A program made the position numbers and the translations under genes. This document shows, piece by piece, positions 10,740 through 15,288 of a DNA stretch of 64,000 bases. The notes below the pieces were generated by a model, which worked only from the letters and a program-made list of their open reading frames with translations, did no database searches and was not told the origin of the DNA. The DNA is from Acidobacteriota bacterium (lineage in GTDB: Bacteria; Acidobacteriota; Holophagae; Holophagales; Holophagaceae). The stretch is from the NCBI GenBank assembly GCA_016192145.1, contig JACPUT010000002.1:248001-312000 (forward strand), in the 5' to 3' direction. How positions within the stretch are numbered: the stretch's first letter is position 1; each line of letters begins with the position of its first letter.

Positions 10740-10775
10740 AATAAGAACGGGCCCCGGTCGGGGCCCGTTCTTATT
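10740..10775 (+). terminator. Rho-independent terminator after the OPT gene
   Basis: A perfect 16-bp inverted repeat (10740-10755 and 10760-10775) with a four-base GGTC loop. The stem base is AT-rich, ending TTCTTATT, so the U-rich side is part of the stem. It could work in both directions. Confidence 0.9.
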
Positions 10776-10904
10776 GAGGACCCTCAATGGCATGGGTGGG
10801 CCGCCAACCCAGGTGTGACGCGGCTCAAAAACCGGAGAAAGGGTGGCGCCGATCAATGCTTTAGACCCCTTCGCCCCCCCAGGCTGGGGCATCTGGAGGT
10901 TCCC

Positions 10905-13646
10905 ATGAGCACTGCCACCGTCGCCCCCGACGCTGTCCGCATCGACGCCTGGCGTGGCGAGCACGAGCTGGCCATGGGTCAGCTGGAGGCCCTCAAGGTG
11001 GCCCTCCGCACCCAGGACTGGGCCATGGTGGATGGGGTGGCCCGCTGGATGTACGAGGTGCAGAAGCCCCACCACGAGGCCGAGGAGCGGGACCTCTTCC
11101 CCCTGCTGGAGGAGATCGGTGCCGAGGCGCTGCACGAGCGGCTCCGCGAAGATCACCGCCGCGTGTGGGTGCTCACCCTGGATCTGCTGGCCGGCATCGT
11201 GGATGGCAAGGTGGCCAACCTCAAAGCCACCCAGGGCACGGCCCGGGAGCTGCTGGAGCTGATGACGGCCCACGTGGAGATCGAGGAGGAGCTGATGCTG
11301 CCCCTGCTGCGGGGCAAGTCCCTCTACACGCCGGAGGCCGTGACCGAGGAGGGCTACCTCATCCTCGAAAAGAAGCTGCTGGCGCCGGAGACCTGGTCCT
11401 TCATCGTGCAGGCGCCCATGGTGGCCCGGGGCCGCAAGCCCGGCCAGTTCCTCATGGTCTCCCCCTTTCCCAACAGCGAGCGCATCCCCCTCACGCTGGC
11501 CGGCGGCGATGCCCGTGGTGGCTGGATCCGCTTCATCATGCAGGAGGTGGGCGCCACCACCCAGGCCCTCGCCAAGTTCCAGGCGGGCGATCGCCTCTTC
11601 GCCGTGGCGGGCCCCATGGGCCATCCCACGGAGCTGGTGGACTCGGGCACCGTGGTGCTCGTGGCTGGCGGCTACGGCAGCGCGGCGGTGCTGCCCGCGG
11701 CAGAACTGCTCCACGCCCAGGGTCGGCGCGTGATCTCCATCCTCGGCGGCCGCAGCAAGGAGCGCGTGCTCCTCGCCCTCGAATTGGGCAACGCCTCCGA
11801 CGAACTGATCGTCACCACGGATGACGGCTCCCTGGGGCGCCAGGGCATCGTGACCCAGGCCCTGAAGGAGGTGCTGGAGCGCGAACCCGTCGCCCAGGTG
11901 GTGGCCGTGGGCCCGCTGCCCATGATGCGGGCCATCAGCGACCTCACGAAGCCCTTCGGCGTGCACACCCTCGTGAGCCTCAACGCGCTCATGGTGGATG
12001 GCACGGGCATGTGCGGCGGCTGCCGCGTGGCCGTGGACGGCGAAATGAAGTTCGCCTGCTTCGATGGCCCCGACTTCGACGGCCACAAGGTGGACTACGA
12101 CATGCTCAAGAACCGGCAGGACTGGTACCGGGGCATGGAGGCCGAGGCCAAGGACCACGCCTGCCACATCGGCCGCGCCACCGCGGGCGTCGGTTTCCAG
12201 ATGCCCGATCTGGGCGAGGCCGAAACGGAATTGGACTGGAAGAATCTGGACCTGGCCACGCTGAAGCCCAGTCAGAAGATGAAGATCCCGCGCCAGAACG
12301 TGGCCTGCCAGGACCCCGTGATCCGCGTGACCAACTTCAACGAGGTGACCCTCAGCCTCAGCCCCGAGCAGGCCCAGCTGGAAGCGTCGCGCTGCCTCCA
12401 GTGCAAGGCGCCCCACTGCATCGACGGCTGCCCCGTCTCCATCGACATTCCCCACTTCCTGCGGGAGATCGTGGCCGGCAACCCCCAAGGCGCCGCCATG
12501 GTCATCAAGCAGAGCTCCAGCCTCGGCTCCGTTTGCGGCCGCGTCTGCCCCCAGGAGAAGCAGTGCGAGGCCAAGTGCGTCGTCGGCATCAAGGGCGAGA
12601 GCGTGGCCATCGGCCGCCTGGAGCGCTACGCCTCCGACAGCCTCCTGGGCACGGACACCCTGCCGCCCCAGTTGCCCCCCACGGGCAAGAAGGTGGCCGT
12701 CATCGGCGCGGGCCCCGCGGGCCTTACGGTGGCGGGCGAGCTGGCCTGCAAGGGCCACGACGTCACCGTCTACGAGGCCCTGCACAAGGCGGGCGGCGTG
12801 CTGCTCTACGGCATCCCCGAGTTCCGCCTGCCCAGCGCCGTGGTGGATCAGGAGGTGGGCACCCTCAAGAAGCTGGGCGTGAAGATCGTCCTCAACACCC
12901 TCGTGGGCCGCTCCATCACCCTCGATGAACTGCGCGAGCAGAACGACGCCATCTTCATGGGCACGGGCGCCGGCCTGCCCAAGATGATGGGCGTGAAGGG
13001 CGAGGATCTGAAAGGCGTCTACACCGCCAACGAGTTCCTCACCCGCATCAACCTCATGCGCGCCGACCTCTTCCCCCACCACGGCACGCCCATCACCGTG
13101 GGCAAGGACGTGATCATCGTCGGCTGCGGCAACACGGCCATGGACGCCGCCCGCTGCGCCCGCCGCATGGGCGCGGAAAACGTCACCGTCGTCTACCGCC
13201 GCACGCAGAAGGAGAGCAGTGCCCGCCACGAGGAGCTGGAGCATGCGATGGAGGAGGGCGTGAAGTTCGCCTGGCTCCACACGCCCATGGAGCTGATCGG
13301 TGAGAACGGCTGGCTGAAGTTCGCCGAGTGCGCGCGCATGGAGCTCACGGAGCCGGGCCCCGACGGCCGCCGCGGCGTGCGCACCACCGATGAGCGCATC
13401 CAGATCCCCTGCGACACCCTCGTCATCGCCCTGGGCTTCGACGTGAACCCCCTCCTCACCCGCAACGAGCAGGGCCTCAAGACCCTCAAGGGCGGCGTGG
13501 TGGTGGTGAACGAAGAGACCGGCGAAACGAGCCTTCCCCAGGTCTTCGCCGGCGGCGACGTCATCACCGGCGGCGCCACCGTCATCCTCGCCATGGGCCA
13601 GGGCCGCCGCGCCGCGGCCGCGATGCATTCGCAGTTGAGCCACTGA
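10905..13646 (+). CDS. Hemerythrin-NfnA-NfnB fusion flavoprotein
   Basis: A 913-residue three-part fusion. Residues 1-140 form a hemerythrin-like HHE four-helix domain with candidate di-iron ligands His20, His57/Glu61, His84 and His123/Glu128. Residues 145-430 match the NfnA/PyrK-type ferredoxin-NAD(P) reductase, with an FAD domain, the NAD-site GGYGSA and a [2Fe-2S] motif Asp365, Cys370, Cys373, Cys385. Residues 455-913 match NfnB/glutamate synthase small subunit, with C497/C500/C505/C509 and C544/C548/C554/C558 regions, an FAD motif GAGPAG (601-606) and a second nucleotide motif GCGNTAMDAAR. NfnAB is a flavin-based electron-bifurcating NADH-ferredoxin:NADP transhydrogenase; the related SudAB acts on sulfide or polysulfide. 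ATG 10905 follows GGAGG. The hemerythrin part may sense or bind O2 or NO. Confidence 0.88.
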   Translation: MSTATVAPDAVRIDAWRGEHELAMGQLEALKVALRTQDWAMVDGVARWMYEVQKPHHEAEERDLFPLLEEIGAEALHERLREDHRRVWVLTLDLLAGIVDGKVANLKATQGTARELLELMTAHVEIEEELMLPLLRGKSLYTPEAVTEEGYLILEKKLLAPETWSFIVQAPMVARGRKPGQFLMVSPFPNSERIPLTLAGGDARGGWIRFIMQEVGATTQALAKFQAGDRLFAVAGPMGHPTELVDSGTVVLVAGGYGSAAVLPAAELLHAQGRRVISILGGRSKERVLLALELGNASDELIVTTDDGSLGRQGIVTQALKEVLEREPVAQVVAVGPLPMMRAISDLTKPFGVHTLVSLNALMVDGTGMCGGCRVAVDGEMKFACFDGPDFDGHKVDYDMLKNRQDWYRGMEAEAKDHACHIGRATAGVGFQMPDLGEAETELDWKNLDLATLKPSQKMKIPRQNVACQDPVIRVTNFNEVTLSLSPEQAQLEASRCLQCKAPHCIDGCPVSIDIPHFLREIVAGNPQGAAMVIKQSSSLGSVCGRVCPQEKQCEAKCVVGIKGESVAIGRLERYASDSLLGTDTLPPQLPPTGKKVAVIGAGPAGLTVAGELACKGHDVTVYEALHKAGGVLLYGIPEFRLPSAVVDQEVGTLKKLGVKIVLNTLVGRSITLDELREQNDAIFMGTGAGLPKMMGVKGEDLKGVYTANEFLTRINLMRADLFPHHGTPITVGKDVIIVGCGNTAMDAARCARRMGAENVTVVYRRTQKESSARHEELEHAMEEGVKFAWLHTPMELIGENGWLKFAECARMELTEPGPDGRRGVRTTDERIQIPCDTLVIALGFDVNPLLTRNEQGLKTLKGGVVVVNEETGETSLPQVFAGGDVITGGATVILAMGQGRRAAAAMHSQLSH

Positions 13647-13773: not shown

Positions 13774-15288
<1,515 letters not shown>

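Follow-up and report, generated by a model that had tools for sequence, protein, structure and literature searches.

Nfn transhydrogenases, regarded as enzymes mainly of anaerobes, make NADPH from NADH and reduced ferredoxin, the latter being supplied by pyruvate:ferredoxin oxidoreductase (PFOR). Here we describe a gene in a 64,000-nucleotide stretch of the genome of an Acidobacteriota bacterium of the family Holophagaceae (contig JACPUT010000002.1 of assembly GCA_016192145.1, positions 248,001 to 312,000; hereafter the window), in which a hemerythrin-like (HHE) domain precedes NfnA and NfnB in a single polypeptide, an arrangement that we abbreviate as HHE-Nfn. Its parts have described relatives. 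Fused Nfn (Pattern B of PMC6405883; NCBIfam model PRK12778; PDB entries 4YLF and 5JCA) has the same NfnA-NfnB order, cofactor motifs and fold, and the window's protein differs from it in the extra N-terminal HHE; there is no HHE among the four architectural patterns in PMC6405883, and in the accessible text of that review the word hemerythrin occurs 0 times and ferritin is not mentioned. NCBIfam model PRK12775 ('trifunctional ... ferritin domain-containing') likewise joins a di-iron four-helix domain to fused Nfn, but that domain is rubrerythrin-like and lies at the C terminus behind Cys-pair motifs, whereas the HHE sits at the opposite end; the window's protein ends with NfnB at residue 913 and scores 781.7 bits on this model, against a cut-off of 1895.

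On the side of the di-iron domain, YtfE/RIC proteins share with the window's HHE a set of four His and two Glu with equal spacing, while the window's domain lacks both ScdA_N and a Cys pair and matches YtfE weakly in sequence (E 0.07). The HerA and HerB proteins of C. jejuni belong to the hemerythrin family and, as we propose for HHE-Nfn, are linked to protection of pyruvate:acceptor oxidoreductase, but they are free proteins and not fused to a reductase, and the His ligands of hemerythrins are said to be conserved in HerA. Among the 56 architectures of O2-binding hemerythrins in PMC4919030, a combination with Nfn was not seen in the accessible text. Fused Nfn, and fusions of Nfn to a di-iron domain, are therefore already known kinds of protein; what appears to be new here is an HHE-Nfn fusion conserved across a family.

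Domain composition and predicted cofactor sites

The gene is a single open reading frame on the forward strand (10905-13646; 913 residues, ATG at 10905, stop codon at 13644-13646). The stop-to-stop frame extends further upstream and offers an alternative start, GTG 9945, but we prefer ATG 10905 because a ribosome-binding-like GGAGG lies directly 5' of it and relatives begin at the same place. Residues 13-135 (10941-11309) match the Pfam Hemerythrin family (PF01814; 42.1 bits, cut-off 25.3) and form four helices when this domain is predicted in isolation. A linker of fixed length follows (residues 136-150, 11310-11354), the surrounding region of residues 124-165 having neither gap nor insertion in 36 alignment rows, and then the NfnA part (residues ~151-440, 11355-12224) and the NfnB part (residues ~455-913, 12267-13643), both delimited by Pfam, motifs and structural matches. 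Within these, DHODB_Fe-S_bind (361-397), Fer4_20 (474-579) and Pyr_redox_2 (595-900) are above their Pfam cut-offs, the fused-Nfn model PRK12778 aligns to residues 152-912 with 926.8 bits (short of its cut-off, 1103), and the best PDB matches of the protein are Thermotoga maritima NfnAB (4ylf) and Pyrococcus furiosus NfnI (5jca). The coordinates, domain order and NfnAB identity given in the initial annotation are borne out by these results, and the fusion itself is confirmed.

We compared the Nfn half with the cofactor motifs collected in section 8 of PMC6405883, and every published motif tested is present. The a-FAD motif ERxPxT reads ERIPLT at 192; the [2Fe-2S] motif DGTGMCGxCRx10C, with its Asp, lies at 365-385 and ends in CF where the published form has CV. 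In NfnB the [4Fe-4S] motifs RCx2Cx4Cx3CPV and GRVCPQExQCx3C...Gx2ER occur at 496-511 and 545-574, the second with a spacing of x11 against the printed x13, a spacing also found in 5jca_L. These are joined by the FAD motif GAGPAGL at 601, an NADP site at 740/764, and Arg641, which aligns with Arg187 of the T. maritima protein, the residue bonded to N5 of the bifurcating flavin (b-FAD); the NADP-phosphate arginines Arg765-Arg766, in YRR, are placed by motif and not by a ligand-bound structure. An AlphaFold2 model of the whole protein (72 rows; mean predicted local distance difference test score, pLDDT, 86.6; predicted template modelling score 0.79) superimposes in its NfnB part on 5jca_L (Z 46.2, root-mean-square deviation (rmsd) 1.7, 455 residues aligned) and in its NfnA part on 4yry_C (Z 28.7, rmsd 2.4, 259 residues aligned). 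To judge from its motifs, the Nfn half looks functional, and the protein is a fused Nfn transhydrogenase that probably bifurcates electrons (2 NADP+ + NADH + reduced ferredoxin -> 2 NADPH).

The predicted iron ligands of the HHE domain are His20 (10962-10964; invariant in all 36 rows reaching the position), His56 and Glu60 in an HxxxE motif (11070-11084; 37/37), His84 in helix C (11154-11156; 37/37), and His123 and Glu127 in a second HxxxE (11271-11285; 37/37). All six are among the 26 invariant columns of 124 (36 rows; hypergeometric P 5e-5, the rows being close relatives). Four residues after His84 stands Trp88 (36 of 37 rows), at the position that we take to correspond to the second His of the helix-C HxxxH of O2-carrying hemerythrins. 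Because Trp88 occupies this fifth-His position, the classical O2-carrier set of five His, one Glu and one Asp (PMC9388753) is not present; the sequence reads HRRVW at 84-88, and Glu127 comes four after His123. YtfE, by comparison, uses His84, His129, His160, His204, Glu133 and Glu208, in the order H, HxxxE, H, HxxxE (PMC9052748), and the predicted ligand set of the window's domain is complete for such a YtfE/RIC-type site, with the same residues and spacing. The di-iron HHE domain supposed in the initial annotation thus stands as a site of the YtfE/RIC type and falls short as one of the O2-carrier type.

YtfE is also the top PDB profile match of the domain, the weak one noted above, in which His56/Glu60, His84 and His123/Glu127 align with YtfE residues and His20 lies outside the aligned part. 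As for ScdA_N with its Cys pair, no Cys occurs in residues 1-150, and 12 residues precede the HHE. Predicted alone, the domain is a confident four-helix bundle (mean pLDDT 95.3) with PF0695 (Z 14.6) and NMB1532 (Z 13.4) as fold matches; YtfE is absent among the best 50 fold matches listed, and the fold by itself says little because many unrelated helical bundles score close behind. The median ratio of non-synonymous to synonymous substitution rates (dN/dS) is about 0.30 for the HHE and 0.19 for Nfn. At high G+C the sites approach saturation, and individual pairs go up to 1.1; we use the ratio for one purpose only, as a sign that the HHE is constrained, though less than Nfn.

The fusion in its family and beyond

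A match to the 913-residue protein was found in 73 of the 77 genomes of the window's family, and the HHE-Nfn architecture in 57: 47 at full length (residue <=33 to >=911, rows counted by hand) and 10 cut, at contig ends or, in genome G064, by a frame break. The full-length proteins number 48 in these 47 genomes, and the fusion is accordingly no product of chance or of a chimaeric assembly. A search with an HHE profile reached 58 of the 77, the additional genome being G069, discussed below. Separate HHE genes in G040 and G048 were considered as free genes; both are located at contig ends, which makes truncated fused genes the likeliest reading. The genus designated g11 (G073, G074, G075) has orthologues 66-68% identical that begin after the HHE, and no remnant of the domain was seen upstream of its Nfn genes. 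In a tree of Nfn built by a quick method, which gave warnings on five long rows, the 20 HHE-bearing rows lie on one side of a branch with HHE-less g11 as their sister. Two HHE-Nfn copies are present in G070, the second more divergent and with all six HHE ligands kept, in contrast to PMC6405883, according to which sequenced genomes contain no duplicated fused nfn.

Outside the family the fusion was not encountered. In a sample of 396 genomes of the phylum, family members included, the Nfn matches that begin in the HHE part are, among the matches listed, all in the window's family, and the HHE profile matches outside it fall in frames of 156-212 residues. Nor was fused HHE-Nfn found in 296 Bacteroidota, 338 Bacillota and 294 Planctomycetota genomes (the phylum names being those in the titles of the loci), where HHE-profile frames measure only 161-565 residues, too short for a fused Nfn; fused Nfn without HHE does occur in Bacteroidales. 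A scan of the whole collection covered the best 80 of at least 588 relatives, with peptide patterns derived from the 913-residue protein, and an additional check of 11 relatives' genomes found no HHE of this kind. There is accordingly no HHE-Nfn outside the family in the genomes sampled of four phyla, a sample that does not cover Desulfobacterota and a profile that a strongly diverged HHE could escape. No description of the fusion was found in the literature searched, which includes the accessible part of PMC8787282 and mostly leaves out subscription papers. The initial annotation had called an HHE on Nfn unusual, and had considered that the architecture might instead be widespread and already characterised; confined to one family in this sample and absent from these papers, it has proved to be the former.

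Some further observations were made during these searches. No second domain precedes Nfn in the long frames of loci L124 and L133. In-frame TAG, TGA and TAA in many Acidobacteriota Nfn matches were considered as recoding; in those loci that were read, these stops mark the boundary of adjacent nfnA and nfnB. One record, L006 (JAJTBC010000318.1), is titled as a Bacillota bacterium, while its gene coordinates are those of contig C57 of G061, a genome of the window's family, and the title is apparently mistaken.

The HHE is tied to Nfn and to O2 or NO by three lines of evidence that do not depend on one another. The first is G069 (L134/L127). Here, at the position occupied in sister genomes by the fused gene, as the neighbours F2 and F3 indicate, nfnA and nfnB are followed on the same strand by a stand-alone HHE gene. 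The split nfnAB of this genome group with those of G072, far from the family's fused Nfn, and its HHE has its nearest counterparts among the fused HHE domains of its own genus (48-52%), with a GYLML stretch at its end resembling the start of NfnA. We read this as an exchange in place, in which a foreign split nfnAB took over from the Nfn part and the HHE stayed, the latter apparently a domain released after fusion. The second line comes from three other Acidobacteriota genomes (G392, G237 and G128; loci L123, L125 and L132), in which fused Nfn is followed by Cys-pair motifs and a C-terminal rubrerythrin-like domain with two ExxH motifs each. Rubrerythrin scores are 21.5, 22.3 and 26.6 bits, L132 alone being above the cut-off of 22.8; L123 and L125 align at full length to PRK12775 with 1638 and 1629 bits, below 1895. 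No paper on this fusion was found in a literature search for rubrerythrin together with NfnAB, and on domain content these proteins are a second, unrelated di-iron fusion, an independent parallel to HHE-Nfn. The third line concerns the COX1 superfamily (PF00115), which we take to span haem-copper oxidases and NO reductases. It is present in 72 of the 77 family genomes (the five without it being G060 and the four genomes of g11), in 56 of the 57 with HHE-Nfn, and in none of the three with HHE-less Nfn orthologues, so that g11, alone among the genera in having such orthologues, is also the one genus that lacks the superfamily; the g11 genomes lacking both HHE and COX1 are also small.

Gene neighbourhood and putative operator

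Neighbourhoods were taken from 20 genomes (19 of genus g3, and G057 of g6), together with G036 and others. In 20 of 20 g3 loci (L142, L148-L166) the genes that come after HHE-Nfn on the same strand are those for PFOR (1186 residues; frame-split in the G005 locus) and a DHOD-like protein, and in G053 the order is PFOR, DHOD-like gene, HHE-Nfn. The second copy of G070 (L138) stands at the end of a cluster for a CoA-transferase, a beta-keto acid cleavage enzyme and a thiolase.

Upstream of the gene in the window, at 10814-10829 on the forward strand, a CRP-type palindrome, TGTGACGCGGCTCAAA, lies at -91 from the start codon and has one mismatch to TGTGA-N6-TCACA, marking a putative operator. A TGTG-N8-CACA palindrome recurs at -91 or -92 in 20/20 g3 loci and at -94 in G057. 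Three g9 loci have copies with two mismatches, at -82 or -84, and no copy with up to two mismatches was found in L141, L147 or L138. The one-mismatch pattern occurs three times in the window against 0.67 expected. A second such palindrome (13813-13828), also with one mismatch, stands 78 bp upstream of a gene for tyrosine phenol-lyase (13891-15288; TIGR02618, 745.6 bits), and for this reason one regulator may serve both genes. A perfect inverted repeat of 16 bp, terminator-like as read from the sequence (10740-10775, forward strand), separates HHE-Nfn from an OPT transporter gene. In G072 a Crp/Fnr-family regulator gene (L128:3439-4191) is encoded just upstream of the split nfnAB on the same strand. 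Elsewhere in the window's genome (L143:6352-7655, contig C16) two overlapping further HHE genes, of 275 and 159 residues, lie near a RelA/SpoT-type gene.

Possible roles of the HHE domain

The role we favour, at a little short of an even chance, is that of a di-iron module fed by Nfn that scavenges O2 or NO and thereby protects Nfn and PFOR; we rank it ahead of a sensor or gate, an iron store for repair and a structural relic. A YtfE/RIC-type di-iron module on the NfnA end of the fused Nfn would take electrons from the NfnA side (a-FAD or [2Fe-2S]), itself fed by NADH or, through the bifurcating flavin, by NADPH. The di-iron site would reduce O2, NO or a related oxidant beside the flavins and Fe-S clusters, and Nfn, together with the co-encoded O2-labile PFOR, would be shielded during brief exposure to O2 or NO. 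What we infer in this scheme is that the site is loaded with iron and receives electrons from Nfn, and likewise its substrate and the protective effect. The published potentials are +80 mV for the NfnA [2Fe-2S] (PMC6405883) and +110 and +260 mV for the YtfE di-iron couples (PMC9052748); since the latter are the higher, electrons could run downhill from NfnA through the HHE to O2, NO or peroxide. HerA, a hemerythrin of C. jejuni, shields Por and Oor against O2. Protection from O2 or NO, one of the functions offered in the initial annotation, thus gains indirect support from the neighbourhood and the phylogenetic pattern, while its other proposals, O2 or NO sensing and O2 reduction, are not separable by sequence.

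Several observations weigh against a protective module. No Cys pair or other electron relay was found in the HHE domain by a motif check, and the linker has a pLDDT of about 59-71 in the AlphaFold2 model. The linkage to PFOR is absent in the window's own genome, where PFOR is on contig C5, and in g9, g7, G057, G061 and g11. The coincidence of HHE-less and oxidase-less genomes amounts to a single evolutionary contrast, and the tree accommodates loss of the HHE as well as gain, because HHE-less g11 is sister of all HHE-bearing rows.

A stronger form of the proposal bears on YtfE, whose electron donor in vivo is described as unknown, ferredoxin with an associated reductase being suggested by the authors (PMC9052748). 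It is possible, if doubtful, that Nfn is the missing donor of a YtfE/RIC-type site and the fusion an O2 or NO reductase driven by NAD(P)H and ferredoxin, perhaps with the di-iron site as an extra high-potential acceptor of bifurcation.

Alternatively, the HHE might act as a sensor or gate: binding of O2 or NO, or a change in its redox state, would turn Nfn activity off or on by way of the fixed-length linker, with no electron transfer. The constant linker length and strong conservation would suit such a switch, the CRP-type operator suggests a regulated gene, and an N-terminal HHE on output domains is common in sensors, for example in diguanylate cyclase fusions (PMC4919030). We nonetheless consider it rather unlikely, as the ligands are YtfE-like and unlike the O2-carrier set underlying known sensors (PMC9388753), and the separate HHE protein of G069 fits a linker-borne gate less well. 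An iron reservoir acting in cis, in which the HHE would pass iron to damaged clusters of Nfn or PFOR as was once proposed for RIC/YtfE, has in its favour the ligand pattern shared with RIC and partner enzymes rich in Fe-S clusters; it appears improbable given that HerA was shown not to promote repair and that the protein lacks ScdA_N, the part specific to RIC, along with its Cys pair. We give the same low standing to a structural or vestigial HHE with no redox role. Nfn is kept without the domain in g11 and in the fused Nfn of Bacteroidales, and the HHE evolves faster than Nfn by the near-saturated medians given above, but its six ligands are all invariant, the divergent second copy of G070 included, and in G069 it has been retained as a gene of its own. 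Least probable is a third bifurcation branch, in which O2 or NO would drive a high-potential di-iron acceptor to pull the exergonic branch, on whose NfnA side the HHE lies, and so drive ferredoxin reduction from NADPH; the published potentials would permit this, but it risks a short circuit, and reducing ferredoxin under O2 seems of little use.

If Nfn is indeed the donor, di-iron domains would have been recruited to it at least twice, as an N-terminal HHE and as a C-terminal rubrerythrin-like domain. A natural fusion of Nfn with a YtfE/RIC-type domain, in a family that bears oxidases or NO reductases, makes both the question of that donor and the question of an anaerobe's enzyme in such company testable with one soluble protein. 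The parallel fusion of Nfn to rubrerythrin suggests, moreover, a general way for low-potential flavin and Fe-S metabolism to live with O2 or NO.

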